Shown: positions 19,282-36,169 of the stretch, piece by piece
Layout: each line of letters starts with the position of its first letter
Position numbering within the stretch: the stretch's first letter is position 1
Assembly: GCA_036265815.1 (NCBI GenBank)
Contig: DATAOI010000097.1
Span: forward strand, 1-36,366
DNA from: Gemmatimonadales bacterium
GTDB lineage: Bacteria; Gemmatimonadota; Gemmatimonadetes; Gemmatimonadales; GWC2-71-9
Direction of reading: 5' to 3'
DNA length: 36,366 nt
The notes under the pieces: model-generated
What the model was told of the DNA's origin: nothing
The model's database searches: none
The model's input: the letters and a program-made list of their open reading frames with translations, nothing else
Program-made: the position numbers and the translations under genes

Positions 19282-20805
19282 CTAGCGCCGGGCGGGCGGC
19301 CGCTTGGCAGGCGGGCGCGCCGGTCCGCCGCGGTCGACCCGAGCAGTGACCCGGCGCCGGCGGATGGTGACGCCGTTGAGCGCGGTCGCCACCCGCTCGG
19401 CCTCCTGCGCCGGGATCTCCACCAGGGCGTAGGCGTCCCTCAGCTCGACCCGCCCGATCTTGCCGCGCTCCACCCGCAGCTCCTTGGTCAGCACCGCGAC
19501 CAGATCGTTGACCGTGGCCCCATCCTTCTTGCCCACCCCGACGTAGATCTTGGCCGTGGCGGGGATATCGGGCAGCGGCGGCGGCAGCTCGGCGCCGGCC
19601 GCGTCGGCCGCGCCGGTCCAGAGCTCGAACAGCGCCGCGGCCACGACTGATGGATCGTAGCGCTCGAACAGGGGTGCCAGCGTCAGGAGCGCGCGCTCCG
19701 GGCGGGCGCTCTCCAGCGCTCGCACGATGGCGGCTCGCTTGCGGCTCGCGGCGGAGGTCACCGCCTCGACCAGGCCGGACAGGCGAATCGGGCGCTGCGG
19801 CGCGGCGATCCTCGCCACATAGCTCTCGGTGCCCGGCGGCACCAGCAGCACCACCTGGCCGGCAGCGAGGAGCTGGCGGAGCCGCGTGGGAGTCGGCGGA
19901 TCGAAGGCGATCACCAGCTCCGCTGGGGCCGCGTCTCCGGTGGTCAGGCGCAGCTCAGGCTCGGCCAGCGCCACCGCGCGGCCGATCCCTTCGTGCTGCG
20001 CCCGGTCGGCGGTCCACACCGACACGGTGGCCGGATCGAGCAGCTCCACCAGCTCCCCCAGTGCGGCCGCCCGCCGGGCCCAGGGCACCGCCACCGTCCT
20101 GACCGGGCCGGCCGGCCCGCCGACCTCGGCGCTGGCGCCCAAGGTGAGCGCGCGCCGGGCGTATCGCTCGACCAGGTCGGCCACCCGGTCCGGCGCGCCG
20201 GAGAGCACGATCCGCTGCGACTCCTTGCTCAGATCGGCCATGAGCGGCGCGAGACTCTCCGGCTCCTCCCACGTCTCGGGCCACGCCAGCAGGACCGACC
20301 CGAGCGCCTCCAGGCGGAGCGCCGAGCGGGTGTGGAGGGCCAGGGCAGTCTCCGGGGTGGTGACCAGGAGATCGACCGTGCCGGCCCGCACTCGCCGCAT
20401 GGCTCGCGCGGTGCCGTGGGCAACCTGCACCCGGATCCCGGTCTCCGCCGCCAGCGAGTGTACCAGCGCACCCCAATCCTCCAACTGGACCGCTGAGCAG
20501 AGCACCAGCCCGGACTGCCCGGACCCGAGGCGGCTCAGCAGGCCCGCCAGCGCCGGCGCGGCGTACGCCGGCGCCGGCGGCGTCAACCCCACCAGATTGT
20601 GCCCGCGCGCCGCGGTGGGCGCCGCCTCGCGGACCGTCGGGTCGGCGGCGGCCCAGCCCAGGCGCTCGAGCGCGGCCGCGATCGGCGTCGTGAGATGCAG
20701 CTCTTCCAAACCGGCCACTGGAGCCTCGTGCTGGGGGTGGAAAATCCAGGGCAAGGTAAGGTGAGCGGCGGTGCGATCCAACCCCGTCGTGGGGACGGTT
20801 GACAT
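19282..20805 (-). CDS. Pseudo-DEAD-box helicase with intact DbpA RNA-binding domain
   Basis: 507 residues. Residues about 418-495 form a good DbpA/CsdA-type RNA-binding domain ([20 protein letters not shown], then [15 protein letters not shown]), followed by a basic Pro/Arg tail. The preceding region aligns by layout with the two RecA lobes of a DEAD-box helicase: a Q-motif-like [23 protein letters not shown] in place of motif Ib and LSGAP in place of SAT. The catalytic motifs are lost: no GxGKT P-loop ([12 protein letters not shown] at that place), AWPETWEE instead of a DEAD box, and no HRxGRTGR. It may bind structured RNA (perhaps 23S rRNA) without ATP-driven unwinding. Start ATG 20805 is used; a longer in-frame start at 20823 is possible. 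It heads the tdk-coaE-gcvH run. Confidence 0.8.
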
Positions 20806-20867
20806 CGCCGATCCGGCGACCAACCTTTCCCACCACTCTCTCGCTTCACCTCGATCCGGAACCGCTC

Positions 20868-25349: not shown

Positions 25350-26288
25350 ATGGACCCTGTCAATCTGACCAATCTGCGCCGGGTTCTGGCCCTGCGAGGC
25401 CTCACACCGGCTTCCGCGGTGCCGGACGCGAGCGGCGGGCGGACCGAGGACGCCTGCATTCGGCAGGCACGGCTGCTGGAGGGCGCCCCGCTCCAGTGGA
25501 TTCCGGTAGATGCGGCGGAGCCCTGGCCCGACCCGCTCGCCTTCCTCGACGGGGTGCAGCGCTCCGAGCTGCTCGCCTACGCCGGCGCGTCGGTCATCGT
25601 GGTTGGCGAGATCGCGGCCGCGGTCCGCGAGCGGCGCGATGCCCGGCTCACCACGGTGGTGGAGGATCGGCGCTTGCTGGCCATCGGGCGGCCCGCCGCG
25701 CTGGAGGCCGCCGGCGACGCCCTCTCCCGCTTCCAATTATTGGCGCTACCCGAGGACGAGCCGCCGCACCCCATCCGGGATCAGGCGAACGCGGCCCGCG
25801 CGCTCGACCGGGCCCGGGGCGCACTGGAGCTGTCGATCGGCGACCGCTACCGTGCCCGCTCCGATGGATGGCTGATCGTGGATGGCTCGCTGACCGAGAG
25901 CCCCGTCTGGTCGGCCGACCCCCGCATGGTGGGTGTCGCGAAGAGCCACGCCACGCTGCCGTTCGACGGAGCCGACCTGGATCGTTACCTCCGGCTGCCC
26001 CAGGGCCATCGCTCCTCGCTCTATGTTCCGCAGACCCGGAGTCTCACGCCGGTGCACGCCTGGGCACTCCGACTCTGGCCTTGGGAGGGGAAGGACCTGT
26101 TTCACGGGCTGGTACGCATCGAAGTTGCTCCGGTCAACGGCACACCGGCGATGGCCGGCCTTCTATCCCGGTGGCTCCTGGCGGAGCGGGCGCCGCTCAG
26201 TGCGCCGGACGCGCGCTGGGATCGTCTGCTCTACGGCATCCACTCGGTCGAGAGCTACCTTCGCGCGCAGGTTCGCGCCCTCGGCTGA
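25350..26288 (+). CDS. nurA: NurA-domain DNA-end nuclease
   Basis: 312 residues, soluble. The NurA catalytic pattern is recognisable: Asp67 in LAFLDGVQRSEL (first Asp motif), Glu160 in GALELSIGDRYRARSDG, Asp178 in WLIVDGSLTESP (second Asp motif), VGVAKSHATL, and a C-terminal LLYGIHSVESYLRAQ with Tyr295 and His298. The Glu-Asp spacing (18) is like that of archaeal NurA. NurA is a 5'-3' exo/endonuclease that works in complex with the HerA hexamer to resect DNA ends. The next gene, 50 bases downstream, is a HerA-type ATPase, which strengthens the call. No clear ribosome site precedes the ATG. The family call rests on motifs plus context; activity is inferred. Confidence 0.82.
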   Translation: MDPVNLTNLRRVLALRGLTPASAVPDASGGRTEDACIRQARLLEGAPLQWIPVDAAEPWPDPLAFLDGVQRSELLAYAGASVIVVGEIAAAVRERRDARLTTVVEDRRLLAIGRPAALEAAGDALSRFQLLALPEDEPPHPIRDQANAARALDRARGALELSIGDRYRARSDGWLIVDGSLTESPVWSADPRMVGVAKSHATLPFDGADLDRYLRLPQGHRSSLYVPQTRSLTPVHAWALRLWPWEGKDLFHGLVRIEVAPVNGTPAMAGLLSRWLLAERAPLSAPDARWDRLLYGIHSVESYLRAQVRALG

Positions 26289-26338
26289 CGCTCGGTAGCC
26301 CCTACAGGTTTCCCGCCCGGCGAGACACATTTCCTCCC

Positions 26339-28282
26339 ATGCCCCATCCCGCCCCACCCATCGGCCGTGTCGTCGCCACCGAGCTCAAGCCTTCCACGCC
26401 GCACCAGTTCCACTTCTGGACCGCGCGGGAGTCGCCCATCGGGATCGGCGCCATCGTCCGAGTCGAGGAAGCGGAGCGCATCGTCTACGGAGTCGTGACC
26501 GACGGCTTCGCCTACTCCGATCTCGCCACGCCGCTGCACGCGGTCATCGGAAGCGATGGAGATCCGGTGGCCGCCGGCATCGAGCCGAGCCGGCGCGCGG
26601 AAATCCGGCTCTTCACGGCGGCCGTGCTCCGGCAGATTCCGGAGGAGCCGCTGCAGCCGGTGCCGCTCGGCTCGGTCTGGCTCGCCTCCGACGCAGACGT
26701 GCTGCTGGCCCTCCGGATGGACAGCTACACCACCGGCGCGCGCCCGACGGGCATCCCCGTGGGATTGTATGCTGCCGGCGGGCACGAGTCGCCGGTGTAC
26801 CTCGACTGCGATTTCCTCCTCGGCCCCGAGGCGGCCCACCTCAACATCACCGGGGTCTCCGGGCTGGCCACCAAGACCAGCGCGGTGGAGTTCCTCCTCG
26901 CGAGCATCTTTCAGACCTTCCCACCGCATAAGGGGTCGGTTGCCGCGCTCTGCTTCAACGTGAAGGGCCCCGACCTCTGCTTCCTCGATCAGCCCGCGAC
27001 CCTTGCCGAGGAGGATTGCCGGCTCTACGCCAAGCTCGGTCTCCGCCCGGAGCCCTTCGGCGACGTGCATTACTACGCGCCCTTCAAGGCCGACGGCGTG
27101 AACCTGAATACGCTACGCACCAACGACGCGCTGTCGGCCAACACGGAGCCGCTGGTGTGGGGCCTGCGAGAGGTGCTGGACTACGCCGAGGTGGTCCTCA
27201 ATCGCGACGACGTAGACGCCAAGGCAGACGCTTTCATCGACTTTCTGGCGGAACGGGTGGTGGGACGGGAGTACCAGGACGACATGTTGCGAGGCAAGCC
27301 TTTTCGGGTGCAGAGCTTTGCCGACCTGGAGGAGTTCTTCCGCGCCATCTTCGACTTCATGGAGGTCCTGGGGAAAGGCGCCGAGGTCTGGAAGACCCAT
27401 CATCTCGCTACCATCCGCAAGGTCCGCAACCGGCTCACCAACATTTCGACGCGCTCCAAGGGACTGGTGACCGACGACGGGGACGCGCACGATCTGCCCT
27501 GGGGCGCCTTCCGGGACCGCGGCGTTCATGTGGTGGACGTCGCCGGACTCGACCCGCTGGCCCAGGATCTGGTGTTCGCCCGGATCGTCTCCAAGCTGCG
27601 GGAGCACCTCGAGCGCCGCGATCTGGGCGTCGATCACGTGGTGGTCTTCGTCGACGAGCTCAACAAGTACGCCCCGGCCGATGGCGCCGACACCTACGTG
27701 CGGAAGATGCTGCTCGATCTCTCCGAGCGGGGCCGCTATCTCGGGCTGGTGCTCTTCTCCGCCCAGCAGTTCCGCTCTCAAGTGCAGCGGCGGGTGGTGG
27801 GCAACGCGGGCACCGCCGTGTACGGCCGGATGGACATGGACGAGCTCACCACGCCGGGGTACGCGGCGGTCTCACCGGCCACCAAGATCAAGCTCGCCAC
27901 CCTGCCCAAGGGCGAGCTGATGCTGCGCCATCCCCACTTTACCCAGCCGATCTTCGTCAAGTTCCCCCGGCCGGCCGTGCTGAGCAGCCGGGAAGGGATC
28001 GAGCGGTTCCCCCCGGCCACCGAGCTCGCCTTTGCCGATGCGGTCGCGCGCCAGCTCCGCGGCATGGACCGCGGGGTCTCGGCCGACGCGGTGCGCGCTC
28101 TGGTGGATGGCCGGCGGGAGGACGAGGTGCGCCGCGCCCTCGCGGCCACCCGGCGGGAACGTGCGGCGGAGCCGCTCGCCTTCTTCATCGCCTGTCTCGG
28201 CCGCCGGGTCAACGGCGAGGTGGTGCAGGGCCGCCGGGGTATCCCCGCGGTCAAACGGGCCGACGACGGGTACGGTTTCTAG
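26339..28282 (+). CDS. herA: HerA-type DNA-translocating ATPase (FtsK/HerA superfamily)
   Basis: 647 residues. Residues 1-130 are the N-terminal HAS-barrel region (PIGRVVATELKPSTPHQFHF, GAIVRVEEAERIVYGVV). The P-loop is LNITGVSGLATKTSAVEFLL (Lys179), which departs from GxxxxGK[ST]: Thr precedes the Lys. Walker B is HVVVFVDELNKYAP (Asp439, Glu440). LSERGRYLGLVLFSAQQ supplies the arginine and sensor Gln typical of HerA. VGNAGTAVYGRMD and MLRHPHFTQPIFVKFPRP are late HerA features. It would form a hexameric ring on duplex DNA and power the NurA nuclease. The region between P-loop and Walker B is longer than in archaeal HerA. Confidence 0.85.
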   Translation: MPHPAPPIGRVVATELKPSTPHQFHFWTARESPIGIGAIVRVEEAERIVYGVVTDGFAYSDLATPLHAVIGSDGDPVAAGIEPSRRAEIRLFTAAVLRQIPEEPLQPVPLGSVWLASDADVLLALRMDSYTTGARPTGIPVGLYAAGGHESPVYLDCDFLLGPEAAHLNITGVSGLATKTSAVEFLLASIFQTFPPHKGSVAALCFNVKGPDLCFLDQPATLAEEDCRLYAKLGLRPEPFGDVHYYAPFKADGVNLNTLRTNDALSANTEPLVWGLREVLDYAEVVLNRDDVDAKADAFIDFLAERVVGREYQDDMLRGKPFRVQSFADLEEFFRAIFDFMEVLGKGAEVWKTHHLATIRKVRNRLTNISTRSKGLVTDDGDAHDLPWGAFRDRGVHVVDVAGLDPLAQDLVFARIVSKLREHLERRDLGVDHVVVFVDELNKYAPADGADTYVRKMLLDLSERGRYLGLVLFSAQQFRSQVQRRVVGNAGTAVYGRMDMDELTTPGYAAVSPATKIKLATLPKGELMLRHPHFTQPIFVKFPRPAVLSSREGIERFPPATELAFADAVARQLRGMDRGVSADAVRALVDGRREDEVRRALAATRRERAAEPLAFFIACLGRRVNGEVVQGRRGIPAVKRADDGYGF

Positions 28283-28391
28283 ATCGCCCCCGGTTGACCG
28301 TGGGGACGTGGGTCACAGCGCGGTCTCGACTTCCTCTCGACCTTCCCCAACCAGCCCCGGTGTGCCGCGGTTCCTCCGTCGCGAGTCTCTG

Positions 28392-30383
28392 ATGTCCGGA
28401 CCCACTCCAGACTTCCCATCCATGGCGCCACAGGCGTCGGCCCGCGTGGACCCGTGGCGGGCATGGGTCGAGCAGGTCAAGGACTATGCGATTTTCATGA
28501 TCGACCCGCGTGGCTATACCGTGACCTGGAATCAGGGGGTCGAGCGGGTGCTCGGCTACTCGGAACGGGAGTTCATCGGTCTACCGGCGTGGCGGCTTTT
28601 CCCCGTCCGGGATCGCGCGGCGATGGTGCCGGAGAGTGAGCTGGAGACCGCGGCGCGTGACGGCCAGGCGAGCGATGATCGATGGATGCTGCGCAAGGAT
28701 GGCACGGAGTTCTGGGCCTCGGGCATCACGAGCGCGCTCCGTGACGCCTCGGGAGGGTTGGAGGGATTCGCCAAGGTGATGCGCGACAGCACCGCCGAGC
28801 GGCGCTCGACGGAGCTCCTCCGGGCCAGTGAGGAACGGCTGCGGGAGACCGAGCATCGGCTCATGACCGCCTTGGACGCGGCCGGCATGGGGACGTGGCG
28901 GTGGAACCTCCTCACCAACGAGGAGGATCTCGACAAAGGCTTGAGCCGGATGCTCGGGCTGGAGGCCGGCGAGTCGGTTCAAACGATGCAGGATGTTCTC
29001 GACCGGGTCCATCCGGAGGACTACGAGGCGGTCCGGGCCGCCTTCAGTCAATCGGCGCAGAGTGGCGCCGACCTGGACATCGAATTCCGGGTGATGCGGT
29101 CCGACGGCGGGCTGCGCTGGATCCGGGCGCACGGCCAGGTATTCTACGACGCCGAGGGAGATCCCGTCACCATGACCGGCGCCTGTGTGGACGTCACCCG
29201 CCGCCGGGAGGTCGAAGAGCAGCTTCGCCAGGCGCACCGTATGGACGCGGTGGGGCGATTGGCCGGCGGGGTCGCACACGAAGTCAACAACATGATGACC
29301 GTGATCCTCGGTTTCTCCGACATCATTCTGCCCACCTTGGACCAGGGAGACGACCGGTACGCCGACCTGCTGCAGGTTCGGAAGGCCGCGGCACGTGCCG
29401 CGATGGTCACCGGACAGTTGCTCGCCTTCAGCCGCCGGCAGATGCTCCAACCCCAGGCCCTCGGGCTCAACGGCGTACTGGAACAGCTCCGGCCGATCCT
29501 CCTGCGGCTGTTGGGAGCCGACAAACGGCTGGACCTGACGCTCGCTCCCGATCTGTGGCGGGTCTATGCCGATCGGGGACAGATCGAGCAGGTGCTGATC
29601 AATCTTACGATCAATGCGCGGGACGCGATGACATCCGGTGGCTGGCTGGCCATTCAGACGGCGAACGTGCGTCTCGACGATGCCTATGCCGGTCGTCATG
29701 CCGGTGTCCGGGTGCCGCCGGGCCGCTATGTACAGATGGCCGTGACCGACACGGGCAGCGGGATTCCGCACGATGTCCAGACTCGGATCTTCGAACCGTT
29801 CTTCACCACGAAGCCGGTGGGGCAGGGCACCGGCCTCGGCCTTTCCATGGTCTATGGGCTGGTCAAACAGAGCAACGGCTTCATCTGGGTGTACAGCGAG
29901 CCGGCGCACGGCACAACCTTCAAGCTCTACTTCCCTGCCACCGATTCCGATGCCCCGGCCGATCACCAACCCGGTGCCCTTCAGGGGGCGGGCGGAGCAG
30001 AGACCGTCCTGGTGGTCGAGGACGACGACTTGGTCCGGCCGCTCACCGTCCGCCTGCTCGAGGTTCAAGGCTACTCGGTGGTGGAGGCGCGGCACGGAGG
30101 CGAAGCGCTGGAGATCCTCGCGAGACCGGATCAGCCGATCGACGTCGTGCTGGCAGACGTGGTGATGCCGGAGATGGGCGGGTCCGAGCTCGCCAGTCGC
30201 ATCGCCGCTTCCGGTGTCGACCTCCCGGTGGTGCTCATGTCCGGTTTTACCGATGACGAGATTGCTCGCCGCGGGCTGCTGGCGCCGGGTGTGCCCTACC
30301 TGCAAAAACCGTTTGATGCCAGCCAACTGGGCCAGCGCCTTCGGGAGGCACTCGCCGCCCGCCGCTCCGGCGGCCAGGCCTGA
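28392..30383 (+). CDS. PAS-PAS hybrid histidine kinase with C-terminal receiver
   Basis: 663 residues, no membrane segment, so a cytoplasmic sensor. PAS 1 is at about 22-135 (AIFMIDPRGYTVTWNQGVER) and PAS 2, PAS_3-like, at about 155-270 (FRVMRSDGGLRWIRAHGQV). The dimerisation/phosphoacceptor domain has His296 in GRLAGGVAHEVNNMMTVILG. The ATPase has NLTINARDAM, TDTGSGIP and GTGLGLSMVYGL. The receiver at about 537-655 has VLVVEDDD, phosphoacceptor Asp589 in VVLADVVMPEMGG and Lys639 in LQKPFD. It lies between herA (109 bases before) and sbcD (81 bases after), same strand. No partner response regulator is adjacent. What it senses is not visible. Confidence 0.93.
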   Translation: MSGPTPDFPSMAPQASARVDPWRAWVEQVKDYAIFMIDPRGYTVTWNQGVERVLGYSEREFIGLPAWRLFPVRDRAAMVPESELETAARDGQASDDRWMLRKDGTEFWASGITSALRDASGGLEGFAKVMRDSTAERRSTELLRASEERLRETEHRLMTALDAAGMGTWRWNLLTNEEDLDKGLSRMLGLEAGESVQTMQDVLDRVHPEDYEAVRAAFSQSAQSGADLDIEFRVMRSDGGLRWIRAHGQVFYDAEGDPVTMTGACVDVTRRREVEEQLRQAHRMDAVGRLAGGVAHEVNNMMTVILGFSDIILPTLDQGDDRYADLLQVRKAAARAAMVTGQLLAFSRRQMLQPQALGLNGVLEQLRPILLRLLGADKRLDLTLAPDLWRVYADRGQIEQVLINLTINARDAMTSGGWLAIQTANVRLDDAYAGRHAGVRVPPGRYVQMAVTDTGSGIPHDVQTRIFEPFFTTKPVGQGTGLGLSMVYGLVKQSNGFIWVYSEPAHGTTFKLYFPATDSDAPADHQPGALQGAGGAETVLVVEDDDLVRPLTVRLLEVQGYSVVEARHGGEALEILARPDQPIDVVLADVVMPEMGGSELASRIAASGVDLPVVLMSGFTDDEIARRGLLAPGVPYLQKPFDASQLGQRLREALAARRSGGQA

Positions 30384-30419
30384 CGCTCTAACTCGTTGCC
30401 CGAGCGCCCGTTTCACCGA

Positions 30420-30453
30420 CTCGTGAGACCTTGATAAATCCCCCGGTCACGAG
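30420..30453 (+). promoter_or_regulatory. Inverted repeat and possible promoter upstream of sbcD
   Basis: CTCGTGA (30420-30426) and TCACGAG (30447-30453) are perfect inverted arms separated by 20 bases. The spacer holds TTGATAAAT, the only AT-rich stretch nearby and a possible -10 element. The site lies 11 bases before the sbcD GTG start, so a bound repressor could block the sbcD-sbcC-GNAT unit. It could also act as an RNA structure over the ribosome-loading region. Confidence 0.35.
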
Positions 30454-30464
30454 ACATTACGTGG

Positions 30465-31646
30465 GTGAAACTGGCTCATCTCGCCGATCCCCATCTCGGC
30501 ATACGGCAGTACCATCGGCAGACCCCTGCCGGCATCAACCAGCGCGAAGCCGACATCGCGAAGGCCTTTCGGGCTGCCATCGATGACGTGATCGCCGCCC
30601 GGCCCGACGCGGTCGTGGTGGCAGGTGATCTCTTCCACTCCGTCCGGCCCACCAACTCGGCGATCGTCTTCGCCTTCCGCCAGTTTCAGCGGCTGCGTGA
30701 GGCGATCCCCGACGCGCCGGTCGTGTTGATCGCCGGAAACCACGATACCCCACGCTCGGCGGAGACCGGGTCGATTCTTCGACTCTTCGAGGAGCTCGGT
30801 GTGGACGTGGCAGTCGACCAGCCCCGCCGGCTCGTCTATCCGGCGCTGGACCTCTCGATCCTCGCGGTGCCGCACCAGGCGCTCACCGCGGCGGACCGCC
30901 CATCGCTCACCCCCGAGGGCCCGGAGCGGAACCGCGTGCTGCTGCTCCATGGCGAGGTGGCGGGCGTCTTTCCCTTTGACCGGAGCGCGGCGGAATACGG
31001 CGGAGCGCTCATCGACCTGCGGGAGCTGGGCGGTCGGGGGGAGTGGAGCTATGTCGCACTGGGGCACTACCACGTGCAGCACGAGGTGGCTCCCCGGGTC
31101 TGGTATGCCGGATCGCTCGATTACGTGAGCCCCAACCTCTGGGGCGAGCTGGCCGACGAGCGGGAGCGCGGATCTTCCGGAAAGGGCTGGCTGCTGGCCG
31201 ATCTCGAGCGCGGCAAGGTCGAGCGCCGGCCGGTGGCCCCTGCCCGGGCGATCCTGGACCTGGCACCGCTGGATGGGGAAGGACTCTCCGCGGCCGCGAT
31301 CGATGTCCAGATCGCCGAGCGGCTGCACGCCATCTCCGGTGGACTCGCCGACAAGATCGTCCGCCTGGTCGTGTACAACGTGCCGCGTCACGTCGGACGG
31401 GAGCTGAATCATTCCATGATTCGCGGATTCAAGTCCACGGCGCTGCACCTGCACCTGGACGTTCGTCGTCCCGAGGTCAACCGCAGCGTTGGCGTGGGCG
31501 CGCCGGGGCGGCGGCAGACCCTTCCCGAGCTGGTGCGATCCTATCTGAGCGGCCGTCCCCTTCCAGCGGAGCTCGACCGCGAGGCGTTCGTGCACCTGGG
31601 CGAGGAGTTGATCGACGCGGTCGAGCGGGACCTGGCAGGGTCCTGA
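30465..31646 (+). CDS. sbcD: SbcD/Mre11-type DNA exonuclease
   Basis: 393 residues. The calcineurin-like phosphoesterase motifs occur in order: HLADPHLG (Asp8, His10), VVAGDLFHS (Asp55), AGNHDTPRS (Asn92, His93), LLLHGEV (His162) and ALGHYHVQHE (His201, His203), followed by WYAGSLDY. The C-terminal part is the capping and Rad50-binding region (ELVRSYLSGRPLPAELDREA). The protein is the Mn-dependent 3'-5' exo/endonuclease that with SbcC opens hairpins and blocked DNA ends. Start is GTG; no strong ribosome site. The stop overlaps the sbcC start by one base (TGATG). Confidence 0.93.
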   Translation: MKLAHLADPHLGIRQYHRQTPAGINQREADIAKAFRAAIDDVIAARPDAVVVAGDLFHSVRPTNSAIVFAFRQFQRLREAIPDAPVVLIAGNHDTPRSAETGSILRLFEELGVDVAVDQPRRLVYPALDLSILAVPHQALTAADRPSLTPEGPERNRVLLLHGEVAGVFPFDRSAAEYGGALIDLRELGGRGEWSYVALGHYHVQHEVAPRVWYAGSLDYVSPNLWGELADERERGSSGKGWLLADLERGKVERRPVAPARAILDLAPLDGEGLSAAAIDVQIAERLHAISGGLADKIVRLVVYNVPRHVGRELNHSMIRGFKSTALHLHLDVRRPEVNRSVGVGAPGRRQTLPELVRSYLSGRPLPAELDREAFVHLGEELIDAVERDLAGS

Positions 31647-34066
31647 TGCAGATCAACCGGATCCGCCTCTGCAACTTCCGCCAGCATGAGCACACCGACC
31701 TGGAGCTCGGCGCGGGGCTCACTGGCATCATCGGGCCCAACGGCGCCGGGAAGACCACCATTCTCGAGGCTATCGCCTGGGCGATGTACGGCATGCCGGC
31801 GGCTCGCGGCAGCCGGGAGACCATCCGCCGCCGGGGCGCGCCGCCCCGCGCCAAGGTCGAGGTGGAGATGGAGTTCAGCCTCGGTCCTCACCAGTATCGC
31901 GTGGTCCGGTCGCTCAACGGCGCCGAGCTCTACCAGGACGGCGATCCCGCGCCCATCGCCAATTCGCTCGGTGCCGTCACCGAGCGGGTGACCCGGCTCC
32001 TCGGCATGACCCGCGAGGAGTTCTTCAACACCTATTTCACCGGCCAGAAGGAGCTCGCCGTGATGGCGGCGATGAGCGCGCCGGAGCGCGCCCAGTTCCT
32101 CTCCCGCGTGCTGGGATACGAGCGCCTCCGCGCGGCGCAGGAGCGGCTGAAGGAGCGCCGGGCATCGCTGCGCGCCCGGCTCGAGGCGCTCCGCGCCGGC
32201 CTGGTCGATCCCAGCGAGCTCGATACTGCTGAGCAGCGCGCCCGGCAGCGGATCGCGGCCGCCGCGACCGCCGAAACTGCGACCGCCGATACGTTGGCCG
32301 GGGCCGAGCGCCTGCTGCTCGAGGTACGCCCCCGGTGGGAGCGTGTCCAGGTCTTGCGGGAGAGCGCGCTCGCCCTGGACGCCGAACTCACGGTAGCCCG
32401 GCATCAGGTGGGTGCCGCCTCCGACCGGGTCGGGCGCCTGGAGCGGCAGATGGAGGAAGCCGCGCTCGCGGCCCACAACCTGGAAGAGCTCACCGGCCGG
32501 CTCGCCCCGCTGCCGGACCTTCGGAACGAGGCGGCGACGCTCGGTCGCCAGGCCGAAGCGTGGGCGGCCCGCAAGGGGTTGCTGGCCCAGCTCTCCGAGG
32601 TGCGTACCCATCTCGCCTCGGTGGAAGAGCGGATGGATCGGATCCCCACCCGCGCGGCCGTGGAGAGCTCTCGCGAGCGGGTCAACGATCTCCGTGCCTC
32701 ACTCACCGGGCTCGCCCTCGACGCCGAGGCCGCCCGGACCGCCTGGGTGCAGGACGCACAGGATGCCCGGACCAAGCGGCAAGGACTCCTCGATCAATAC
32801 CAGGAGCTCAAGGACCAGCGCCAGCGAATCGTGAAGGCCGGCCCGGAAGGCGACTGCCCCACCTGCACCCGGCCCTTGGGCAAGGAGTACGGCACCGTGC
32901 TCCAGTTGCTCGACCGGCAGATCGAGGAGGTCGTCTCCAACGGCAATTTCTACAAGCAGCGCATCGAGCAGCTGCAGGCCGAGCCGCGCGAGCTGGAGGA
33001 GGTCGAGCACCGCCGCATCGAAGTGGAGCGGGAGCTCTCCAACGCCATCGCGGAGCTGGGCCGGCTCGACGCACAGACCCAGGAAGCGGGACACCTCCAC
33101 GAGGAGCACGAGCGCCTGGTGCTCCGCACCCATGAGCTGGAGGCGTCGCTCGGTCTGCTGCTGGGGTCCTACGACCAGGGCCGCCACGAGGCCGTCATCG
33201 GGCAGATCCGCGAGCTGGAGCCGCTCGCGCTGCAGGCCGAGCGCCTGCGTGGCCTGGTCGACCGCGGCAGCGTGGTCACCGCCGAGCTGGAAACCGCCCA
33301 TGGCGAGCGCGACGCCGCAGCCGCGCGGCAGGCCCTGCTGGAGGGGCGGTTGGCGGAGCTGGGGTACAATGAGCCCATGTATCGCGCGGCCCGGGAGGCG
33401 GAGCTCACCGCCGAGCACGGCCGGCGGGAGGCGGAGCTCGCGCTGGTGCGGGCTCGCGGCGAGAGCGCGGCGGCCGCGGAATTGATCGCCGAGATCGCTC
33501 GCCGCAGGGCTGAGCGGGTGGAGCGGGAACGCGAGGCGGCCGCCACCGCGGCGGAGCTGGCGCTGCACCAGGAGCTCGACCGCGCGCTCACCGATCTGCG
33601 GACCGACCTGAACGCCGCCCTCCGCCCCGACCTGTCCGAGCTCGCTTCCGGCTTCCTGCGCGACTTGACCAATGGTCGCTACACCGACCTGGAGCTGGAC
33701 GAAGACTATGTCGCGACCCTGCTGGACGATGGTGAGGCCAAGGCGGTCATCTCGGGCGGCGAGGAGGACGTGGCCAATCTGGCGCTGCGGCTCGCGATCA
33801 GTCAGATGATCGCGGAGCGGGCGGGTCAGCCGCTATCGCTGCTGGTGTTGGACGAGATCTTCGGCTCGCTCGACGAGGAGCGCCGCGCCTCGGTGGTGGA
33901 TCTGCTGCGCAGCCTGGCCGACCGTTTCCCCCAGGTCATCCTGATCACCCACATCGACTCCGTGCGGGAGGGTTTCGACCGGGTGGTGCGGGTGGGCTTC
34001 GATCTGGCGAGCGGCGTCGCGACGGTGCGGGAGGATCCGCTGGGAGGACATGATGTGGCGGCCTGA
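31646..34066 (+). CDS. sbcC: SbcC/Rad50-type DNA repair ATPase with zinc hook
   Basis: 806 residues. The N-terminal ATPase half has GIIGPNGAGKTTILEAIAWA (Walker A). Two long Glu/Arg/Ala-rich coiled-coil arms follow, meeting at a zinc hook CPTC (Cys404, Cys407), placed almost exactly in the middle. The C-terminal half has the signature ISGGEEDVANLALRLAIS (about 702-719), Walker B LLVLDEIFGSLDEER (Asp736) and the H-loop ILITHIDSV. The length (806) is shorter than Escherichia coli SbcC and nearer archaeal Rad50. It is coupled to sbcD by a one-base overlap (TGATG) and forms the Mre11-Rad50 complex with it. It tethers and signals DNA ends with ATP. Confidence 0.94.
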   Translation: MQINRIRLCNFRQHEHTDLELGAGLTGIIGPNGAGKTTILEAIAWAMYGMPAARGSRETIRRRGAPPRAKVEVEMEFSLGPHQYRVVRSLNGAELYQDGDPAPIANSLGAVTERVTRLLGMTREEFFNTYFTGQKELAVMAAMSAPERAQFLSRVLGYERLRAAQERLKERRASLRARLEALRAGLVDPSELDTAEQRARQRIAAAATAETATADTLAGAERLLLEVRPRWERVQVLRESALALDAELTVARHQVGAASDRVGRLERQMEEAALAAHNLEELTGRLAPLPDLRNEAATLGRQAEAWAARKGLLAQLSEVRTHLASVEERMDRIPTRAAVESSRERVNDLRASLTGLALDAEAARTAWVQDAQDARTKRQGLLDQYQELKDQRQRIVKAGPEGDCPTCTRPLGKEYGTVLQLLDRQIEEVVSNGNFYKQRIEQLQAEPRELEEVEHRRIEVERELSNAIAELGRLDAQTQEAGHLHEEHERLVLRTHELEASLGLLLGSYDQGRHEAVIGQIRELEPLALQAERLRGLVDRGSVVTAELETAHGERDAAAARQALLEGRLAELGYNEPMYRAAREAELTAEHGRREAELALVRARGESAAAAELIAEIARRRAERVEREREAAATAAELALHQELDRALTDLRTDLNAALRPDLSELASGFLRDLTNGRYTDLELDEDYVATLLDDGEAKAVISGGEEDVANLALRLAISQMIAERAGQPLSLLVLDEIFGSLDEERRASVVDLLRSLADRFPQVILITHIDSVREGFDRVVRVGFDLASGVATVREDPLGGHDVAA

Positions 34067-35012
34067 CCGGAGCCTTCGCGGGCCGGACCGGCCCGGGCTG
34101 CGCGATATCGAGCCGCTCAATCGGGTCTTTGCCGACGCGTTCACCGACCGCTACAGCCGGGACGGGCTGGTCGGCGTCCGGGTGCCGCACCTGAACAAGC
34201 TGGTCTGGCGCTACGCCATCGAGGATGCCGGCAACGGCGCCATGATCTGGCGGGATGGCGAGGGGCAGATGGTCGCCTTCAATATGGTCCACCAATCCGG
34301 AGCCGAAGGCTGGATGGGTCCGCTCGCCGTCCGGCCGGATCGTCAGGGGGAGGGGCTCGGCTCCACTATGGTGCGGGTCGGCATCGAGTGGCTCAAGGCG
34401 CAGGGCGTCCAGACCATCGGGCTCGAGACGATGCCCAGGACGGTGGAGAACATCGGGTTCTACAGCCGTCTCGGGTTGGTGCCCGGCCCGCTCACCGTCA
34501 CCCTGGTGCACGATGTGCCGCGGCGGGTCGGAGCCGCGCCCGAGCTGCTCTCGACCACGGGGAATTCACTGGAACGAGGGGTGGAGGAGTGCCGGCGGCT
34601 CACCGACGAGCTGGCGCCAGGCGTCGATTTCTCCCGGGAGATTACTCTCACCCATGAGCTCAACATCGGCGACACCACGCTGGTGCGCGAGGGCGGGGAG
34701 CTCCTGGGGTTCGCGCTCTGGCATTCCACGCCGCTGGCGGCCGGCCGGGCCAAGGACGAGGTGCGGGTGCTCAAGCTGGTGGCGCGGAGCCTCTCGACGT
34801 TCGAGCGACTGCTCGAGGTCCTGCACGGCACCGCCGCGGTCGAGCGGGTCGGACGCGTCGCCATCCGCTGCCAGACCGAGTATGCGGAGGCCTACCTCCG
34901 GCTCATCGCCGCGGGATACCGGGTGCACTGGACCGATCTGCGGATGATCCTGCGGGAGCTGCCACACGCACCGCCCAAGCGCGGGCTAGTGTTGTCGAAT
35001 TGGGAGATCTGA
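34053..35012 (+). CDS. GNAT-family N-acetyltransferase, probably with two GNAT-like halves
   Basis: About 319 residues. The first half is a GNAT domain with the acetyl-CoA loop MGPLAVRPDRQGEGLGSTMV, then GIEWLKAQGVQTIGLETM and a late IGFYSRLGLVPG. The second half (about 165-315) repeats a similar alpha/beta pattern (LLGFALWHSTPLAAG, then YAEAYLRLIAAGYRV) without a clear acetyl-CoA loop, as in other tandem GNATs. Two ATGs lie in a row (34050 and 34053); GGAGG at 34043-34047 gives better spacing to the second. The gene starts inside the end of sbcC (14-17 bases), so the two are co-transcribed. The acceptor is unknown. A role in modifying a repair protein is only a possibility from position. Confidence 0.8.
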   Translation: MWRPDRSLRGPDRPGLRDIEPLNRVFADAFTDRYSRDGLVGVRVPHLNKLVWRYAIEDAGNGAMIWRDGEGQMVAFNMVHQSGAEGWMGPLAVRPDRQGEGLGSTMVRVGIEWLKAQGVQTIGLETMPRTVENIGFYSRLGLVPGPLTVTLVHDVPRRVGAAPELLSTTGNSLERGVEECRRLTDELAPGVDFSREITLTHELNIGDTTLVREGGELLGFALWHSTPLAAGRAKDEVRVLKLVARSLSTFERLLEVLHGTAAVERVGRVAIRCQTEYAEAYLRLIAAGYRVHWTDLRMILRELPHAPPKRGLVLSNWEI

Positions 35013-35020
35013 TCGGCTGG

Positions 35021-36169
35021 TTACGACCGGGTGCACGGCCTGCCCGGTAATGCAGCCAGCCGCGCGCCCACGTCCTTGAACGCCTGTTCGTTCTCCGGGT
35101 TGGACATGAAGTCCCGGTCGTACCGCCACATGAGCAGGGCACAGCCGGCCGGGCCAAGGGTGAGGCCGACGGTTCGCACCTGCTCCGCCGTCATGCGGCA
35201 GTTGGGGTCGCCGGTCCCCCGTCCACCGGTGGACGGGGTGGGACAGTTCCACGAGCCATCGCGAACGGCTTGGATACCGCCGTTCAGGATGTTCATGCTG
35301 AAGACGATCGCGTGGTGGTCCCGCCGGGCAAGCGCCAGACCCGCGTCCCGGAACGCCGTGACATCCCCGGCACGGGAAGAATACTGGTCGATGATGAACT
35401 CGCACACCCGGTAGGACGCCTGCGGCTGGAAGGCGTCGTGTTGGTGGCCCACCCCAACGGGAAGGGTCGGAAACAGGGCCTTGACCACGGCACACATCGA
35501 GTCGACCCGGGCCTTGGTCATCGTGCCCGACGGCCCCCAGGTGTTTCCGTCTCCCAGGCCGTGCACATTGGGCTCATCCATCACCGAGTTCCCCAGGAGC
35601 GTTCCATCGGCGACCGCCGCCGCAACTGCCGCTTTGATCTCCGGCGTGTCATAGCCGTCCATCACCGCCTGCCATTTGCCTCTGTCGAACTCGCCGCCGG
35701 TGAGATACCGGTTATGCGAACCGCCCGTCATGTTGAAGATCACGTGCCGGTGTGCCGCTCGCGCGGTGTTCAACTGAGTGATGATGGCGTCCGGGCTGGT
35801 ACCGGAAATGGTGCCGGTGAATGGCTCCATGCCGGGCTTCCAGCCGGTGCTCCCGTTGAATCCGCCGGAGGGTCCGAAGGGGATGCCCTGACCGCTCGGT
35901 GCGCGGGTCACTGTGGCGGCCTTGGCCGATGACGTGAGCGTCACGACCGCCGTATCGGCGAGTCCAGTGGAGGAGGCGATCACCCGGTAGGTGCCCGCGG
36001 TGGCCCCGGCGGTGTAGAGGCCACTCCGGGTGATACTGCCGCCGGTGGCGCTGAAAGCCACCGGCACGACTACACTGTCCAGGACTGGGGGGGTGGCAGG
36101 GACAGCAGTCGGGGTCTGGAACGTGAGGACCCCGACCAGCGCGAACGCCTGTGCAGGCAACGTAAGCAT
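35021..36169 (-). CDS. Exported Ig-like plus barrel domain protein of unknown activity
   Basis: 382 residues. The N-terminus is weakly signal-like (MLTLPAQAFALVGVLTF), then a short bacterial Ig-like segment (AFSATGGSITRSGLYTAGAT, AGTYRVIASSTG). Residues about 95-380 appear to be a single alpha/beta barrel domain: HVIFNMTGGSHNRYLTGGEF, GNSVMDEPNVHGLGDG with a possible acidic catalytic Asp-Glu, CEFIIDQYSSRAGDV and a C-terminal CALLMWRYDRDFMSN. The layout resembles glycoside-hydrolase-like barrels, but no named family is recognised. The Ig segment looks shortened, so the true start may lie elsewhere. It converges on the GNAT gene with eight bases between stops, and the 56 bases upstream separate it from a galactose-oxidase-like gene. 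Confidence 0.6.
   Translation of the reverse strand: MLTLPAQAFALVGVLTFQTPTAVPATPPVLDSVVVPVAFSATGGSITRSGLYTAGATAGTYRVIASSTGLADTAVVTLTSSAKAATVTRAPSGQGIPFGPSGGFNGSTGWKPGMEPFTGTISGTSPDAIITQLNTARAAHRHVIFNMTGGSHNRYLTGGEFDRGKWQAVMDGYDTPEIKAAVAAAVADGTLLGNSVMDEPNVHGLGDGNTWGPSGTMTKARVDSMCAVVKALFPTLPVGVGHQHDAFQPQASYRVCEFIIDQYSSRAGDVTAFRDAGLALARRDHHAIVFSMNILNGGIQAVRDGSWNCPTPSTGGRGTGDPNCRMTAEQVRTVGLTLGPAGCALLMWRYDRDFMSNPENEQAFKDVGARLAALPGRPCTRS

Follow-up and report, generated by a model that had tools for sequence, protein, structure and literature searches.

The nurA, herA, mre11 (sbcD) and rad50 (sbcC) genes of a Gemmatimonadales bacterium, which lie together in the 36,366-nucleotide stretch of DNA analysed here (hereafter, the window), probably constitute a chromosomal module for the resection of double-strand-break ends, of the HerA-NurA/Mre11-Rad50 type, that replaces AddAB/RecBCD in most Gemmatimonadales. 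The set itself is known in archaea and in one bacterium; what is new is its broad distribution in bacteria, a NurA component that family models do not detect, and the complementary occurrence of the set and AddAB. The original observation is real and turned out to be somewhat larger than the first-pass annotation of the window had it: this is an order-wide, annotation-hidden bacterial counterpart of the archaeal resection operon that probably does the work of AddAB.

Layout of the locus and identity of the encoded proteins

In the host genome (4.59 Mb, 99% complete), nurA, herA, sbcD and sbcC are intact and follow one another on the + strand in the order in which they were originally described. 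The locus consists of six genes:

25350-26288, + strand: nurA, with an ATG start and a TGA stop, 312 aa
26339-28282, + strand: herA, with an ATG start, 647 aa
28392-30383, + strand: PAS hybrid histidine kinase, domain order PAS-PAS-HisKA-HATPase-REC (Pfam/NCBIfam)
30465-31646, + strand: mre11/sbcD, with a GTG start, 393 aa, metallophosphoesterase nuclease
31646-34066, + strand: rad50/sbcC, about 806 aa, ABC ATPase with a coiled coil and a zinc hook
34050-35012, + strand: tandem-domain GNAT acetyltransferase, 320 aa (PF00583, 1.2e-11)

Position 35012, which had been given as the end of the locus, marks the end not of SbcC but of the separate GNAT gene. The intergenic distances, from nurA to GNAT, are 50, 109, 81, -1 and -17 nt, so that the last three genes overlap: the ATG of sbcC shares bases with the sbcD stop codon, as TGATG, and the GNAT start runs 17 nt into the end of sbcC. 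These small gaps and overlapping stop and start codons are consistent with an operon, and co-transcription is predicted. In scans for consensus promoters and terminators, the real sequence performed no better than shuffled sequence. The GC content of the operon genes is that of the window as a whole.

The 25350 protein yielded no matches in Pfam, NCBIfam, PADLOC or PHROGs. The Pfam NurA family, PF09376, with which the first-pass annotation proposed to identify it, misses it completely, with no match in this protein or in the host genome, and recognizes only 4 of 46 NurA relatives, at a best E-value of 0.0034. Because the curated family models fail on this protein, we turned to profile and fold comparison. 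Searched against the PDB, a profile built from the 46 relatives found only 1zup (T. maritima TM1739; 0.0012) and the NurA of 7f6d (0.0057); a haemoglobin match from a single-sequence PDB search was rejected as a chance match. The AlphaFold2 model (pLDDT 92.2, pTM 0.90) retrieves 1zup (3.1e-11), 7f6d_G (1.1e-10) and 2ygk (4.6e-8) as the best Foldseek matches, and VIA-align gives Z-scores of 19.9 with D. radiodurans NurA (7f6d_G), 19.1 with the T. maritima protein (1zup) and 15.6 with S. solfataricus NurA (2ygk). Every one of the best ten VIA-align entries is a NurA or a TdpAB/TdpB chain (Z 14.4 for the TdpAB chains), and Argonaute and endonuclease V trail at Z 11. The RNase H-like NurA fold assumed at first pass is thus present in the model, and the protein is clearly identifiable by fold as a NurA nuclease of the bacterial type, with predicted Mn-dependent nuclease activity. 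Among the 46 aligned relatives, the acidic residues D178, E160 and D67 are conserved in 46, 45 and 41 sequences, respectively, and E160 and D178 pair with a glutamate and an aspartate of 1zup in the profile alignment; these three residues probably bind metal and are the putative catalytic site.

PF09376 overlooks an entire bacterial branch of NurA, and because of this, the nurA genes of this branch are likely annotated as "hypothetical protein".

HerA, which has no Pfam match, aligns with D. radiodurans HerA (drHerA, 7f6d_B) at 2.8e-46 in phmmer and 2.3e-61 in a profile search, the profile alignment comprising two stretches (profile positions 5-280 and 324-555). Its Walker A motif, GVSGLATKTS, is unusual, and Walker B reads FVDELNKYAP; both motifs are intact, and Walker A and the DELNK motif are invariant in 26 aligned sequences. 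In drHerA, the residues matching the Walker A K/T and the Walker B D/E are important for function (PMC9960219). By sequence comparison, the protein belongs with D. radiodurans HerA among the DNA translocases with HAS-barrel and RecA-like domains, with translocation predicted; by analogy with drHerA, it would form a hexamer and translocate DNA at the expense of ATP (PMC9960219). The D. radiodurans proteins (7f6d; PMC9960219) are the closest solved homologues of both NurA and HerA, carry the same Walker motifs and are likewise encoded together, whereas the identity between the NurA proteins is only 12-13% over the structural alignment.

A metallophosphoesterase nuclease gene that overlaps the gene of an ABC ATPase with a CxxC hook has the signature of a Mre11-Rad50/SbcCD pair, and the homology searches agree with this assignment. 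Mre11 matches PF00149 (2.7e-11), P. furiosus Mre11 (1e-15) and, under the model cut-offs in both cases, the NCBIfam models Mre11_Sulfo (2.9e-25) and sbcd (1.2e-19). Rad50, a single-copy gene in the host genome, contains the SMC_N/AAA_23 domains (Pfam), an intact Walker A motif (GPNGAGKTT) and, in the middle of the sequence, around residue 406 of the frame as translated, a CPTC zinc hook; it matches the archaeal Rad50 model of NCBIfam at 4.3e-57 compared with 1.4e-29 for sbcc, and M. jannaschii Rad50 at 4.9e-31. Judging by these scores, both proteins are closer to their archaeal homologues than to E. coli SbcCD.

The model of the GNAT protein (AlphaFold2, pLDDT 92.6) resembles tandem GNATs in a Foldseek search.

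Conservation of the gene order

To explore the neighborhoods of herA in related genomes, we used 80 loci that were collected by the HerA sequence alone. The nurA gene is located at most 500 bp upstream of herA in 49 of the 70 loci with at least 1.5 kb of upstream flank; sbcD lies on the same strand, at most 2.5 kb downstream of herA, in 46 of the 52 loci with at least 4 kb of downstream flank, with sbcC directly behind it. This linkage is far beyond chance. The order nurA-herA-sbcD-sbcC is found throughout Gemmatimonadales, in Armatimonadota (L092 and L095; among further genomes sampled from the L095 phylum, L111-L116 and L118) and in Gastranaerophilales (L094, L099). In other genomes of the same Armatimonadota sample (L119-L124), nurA-herA is present and sbcCD is not adjacent. 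Thus, the pairs that the first-pass annotation noticed side by side in a single contig are regular neighbours in HerA loci from three phyla.

In deep Gemmatimonadota, herA is near sbcCD in 4 of 6 cases. We considered a diverged copy of nurA upstream of herA in these genomes and rejected it: herA follows carB there, and nurA is located elsewhere in the genome. The position of herA directly after carB, which encodes the large subunit of carbamoyl-phosphate synthase, was seen in L080, L083, L085, L088, L089 and L097.

The main branchings of the HerA tree agree with those of the SbcC tree, in which Armatimonadota and Gastranaerophilales are likewise each set apart from Gemmatimonadota. Pairwise identities are strongly correlated between HerA and SbcC (0.89) and between HerA and SbcD (0.90), which supports joint inheritance rather than interaction because shared descent alone yields high correlations.

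The GNAT gene directly follows sbcC in most Gemmatimonadota loci with enough flank and is a constant neighbour of the module in this phylum. In the alignments made, mean column identity is 70% for GNAT, 61% for HerA and 41% for NurA. The hybrid kinase, which had been listed between herA and sbcD as part of the locus, is indeed there and does not belong to the conserved set: found in L031 and missing in nearly all relatives (for example, L041 and L036), it is an incidental, lineage-specific insertion. More generally, the nurA/herA and herA/sbcD junctions are interrupted in many lineages (L031, L033, L034, L037, L038, L050, L071, L085, L109) by genes for kinases, chloride channels, an ABC transporter and secreted proteins of about 300 aa, the latter recurring in several genomes; despite these insertions, the core genes remain near each other. 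A hidden conserved partner among the inserts was ruled out, the inserted genes being unrelated to each other.

Distribution of RecB/AddAB-type nucleases

A check for recBCD/addAB, proposed at first pass, came out in favour of the original idea. The host genome has no match to PDDEXK_1, which is the nuclease domain found in RecB and AddB, whereas the same search was positive in 12 of 14 control genomes, and UvrD_C matches in the host genome are limited to PcrA and a UvrD-DEDDh fusion. These checks covered PDDEXK_1 and UvrD_C, and the survey across the phylum covered HerA and PDDEXK_1. One UvrD-family frame of 1,014 aa was considered as AddA/RecB and rejected, because it encodes a UvrD helicase that carries an exonuclease domain of the DnaQ type. 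In this UvrD/PcrA-type helicase of about 990 aa (L135:5686-8727; contig C5, about 115685-118726), the DnaQ-like (DEDDh) domain is inserted between the helicase parts.

Across 150 genomes sampled evenly over the Gemmatimonadota phylum, full-type HerA was identified in 83, leaving out nine weak matches that resemble other HerA-family ATPases, and strong PDDEXK_1 matches (E up to 1e-20) were found in 65. The two are close to mutually exclusive: 73 genomes have HerA only, 55 the nuclease only, 10 both and 12 neither (odds ratio 0.03; Fisher p 7e-19, a value that overstates independence and is not to be read literally since the co-distribution runs along a small number of deep branches). RecB/AddAB-type nucleases are thus nearly absent from the genomes that carry the module. 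When any PDDEXK_1 match is counted, the respective numbers are 59, 63, 24 and 4. The distribution mostly tracks deep branches, with families f1 and f2 set against f5 to f9 and f4 mixed. Many of the strong matches are pairs of adjacent frames of about 1,050 and 1,150 aa, presumably AddAB or AdnAB.

Given that 10 genomes encode both HerA and a strong nuclease match and 12 encode neither, the replacement is not strict. Furthermore, it is claimed for Gemmatimonadales only because most of the HerA-bearing genomes tested from Armatimonadota and Gastranaerophilales do carry PDDEXK_1 matches. Most of these Gemmatimonadales lack the usual bacterial enzyme and, therefore, the archaeal-style set is suggested to perform the trimming of DNA ends.

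Function of the module and alternative readings

By analogy with the studied systems, we infer that the four products may act jointly. Rad50-Mre11 would recognize and tether the break and then make the first cuts; a HerA hexamer would load onto the duplex next and pump DNA into a NurA dimer, which would pull the strands apart and digest the 5' strand, thereby providing RecA with a 3' tail. What this scheme says about enzymatic activities, about a 6:2 assembly of HerA and NurA and about Mre11-Rad50 handing over to HerA-NurA comes from work on D. radiodurans, Sulfolobus and Pyrococcus and would carry over to the proteins described here. The archaeal operon of Sulfolobus, Pyrococcus and their relatives links the same four protein families; herA, mre11, rad50 and nurA are co-transcribed in S. 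acidocaldarius (PMC2288612), and all four are essential in S. islandicus (PMC4351679). The locus analysed here differs from it in the bacterial type of NurA and HerA, in the order nurA-herA-sbcD-sbcC, in the GNAT gene that follows in Gemmatimonadota and, in the window, in the kinase insert. The role of HerA-NurA is disputed, between the production of recombinogenic ends with Mre11-Rad50 and other functions, such as degradation of foreign DNA (PMC12977600). Against the resection reading count the modest or inconsistent effects of nurA and herA deletions in D. radiodurans and Thermus (PMC9960219), the doubts about such a role raised in 2026 for HerA-NurA of T. kodakarensis (PMC12977600) and the separation of nurA from herA in a deep clade of Gemmatimonadota.

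We put forward only tentatively a more far-reaching version, in which the linked NurA-HerA-Mre11-Rad50 would be the primary resection apparatus of Gemmatimonadales, and perhaps of some Armatimonadota and Gastranaerophilales, having replaced AddAB/RecBCD at deep branches; in Gemmatimonadota, GNAT would have joined as a fifth dedicated part, perhaps a regulator that acetylates one of the other four.

TdpAB works together with DNA phosphorothioation in phage defence. Like the present locus, TdpAB (8wet, 8wfd) combines a HerA-like ATPase with a NurA-like nuclease, and a comparable role in the degradation of phage or other foreign DNA could be envisaged, with HerA feeding linear DNA to NurA, both strands being destroyed as in TdpAB, HerA-Sir2 or HerA-DUF4297, and Mre11-Rad50 serving as the end sensor. 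The resemblance of the NurA model to TdpAB chains fits this picture, as do the PADLOC matches of HerA (to the mad8 and HerA models, weakly) and Rad50 (to mad3 and LmuB) and the study of T. kodakarensis HerA-NurA, in which both strands are degraded and an antiviral role is preferred by the authors (PMC12977600). Defence genes, however, are usually patchy and mobile, and for a TdpAB or HerA-nuclease system such a distribution and an association with defence or DNA-modification genes would be expected, whereas the module described here spans whole families, with congruent HerA and SbcC trees, and sits among housekeeping genes. No DNA-modification gene was recognised within the locus, HerA has no close relative in viral contigs, and its relatives on plasmids are only distant ones. 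A defence function thus seems unlikely.

Also quite unlikely, in our assessment, is the combination of two independent modules, SbcCD for hairpins and blocked ends and NurA-HerA for something else, brought together by co-regulation or slow rearrangement. The two pairs do occur apart: work on bacterial HerA-NurA has so far concerned Deinococcus and Thermus, where nurA-herA does not adjoin sbcCD (PMC5448004), and the Armatimonadota genomes L119-L124 and the displaced nurA of deep Gemmatimonadota point the same way. Yet the linkage recurs in the three phyla sampled here and survives repeated unrelated insertions, and HerA co-precipitates with Rad50-Mre11 in Sulfolobus acidocaldarius (PMC2288612). 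The linkage has also been reported from Oceanithermus profundus (Deinococcota), as nurA-hepA-sbcD-sbcC, in one species, and interpreted as local recruitment of sbcDC (PMC5448004). That arrangement is the same, with a NurA homologue before HerA and SbcD and SbcC downstream; here, it extends across an order of Gemmatimonadota and to Armatimonadota and Gastranaerophilales.

Recent import of an archaeal operon into the host genome, in line with the preference of Mre11 and Rad50 for archaeal over E. coli families and structures and with the archaeal origin that earlier authors assume for bacterial HerA-NurA (PMC12977600, PMC5448004), is highly improbable given the D. radiodurans type of HerA and NurA, the order-wide spread, the HerA and SbcC trees that track bacterial phyla, and the GC content of the genes, which equals that of the window; an ancient transfer of the set from archaea is compatible with these data.

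A resection module replacing AddAB/RecBCD suggests that wholesale swapping of the end-resection machinery can occur inside a phylum. In the open-access literature, we found no report of the set in Gemmatimonadota and none with these genes for Armatimonadota or Melainabacteria, although an earlier mention is possible. Cooperation of the four products should be testable by ordinary genetics because this order, with its linked genes and mostly without RecB-type nucleases, has cultured mesophilic members.

Two other genes of the window deserve mention. The product of 19285-20823, on the - strand, is 513 aa long and has a C-terminal DbpA RNA-binding domain, with no Pfam DEAD-box helicase match in the remainder; this is perhaps a degenerate DEAD-box protein. 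Just 3' of GNAT, on the opposite strand (35024-36169, -), is the gene for a 382-aa protein without a Pfam match, whose 56%-identical relatives are encoded a few kb 3' of GNAT in L036 and L041, on the operon strand there.
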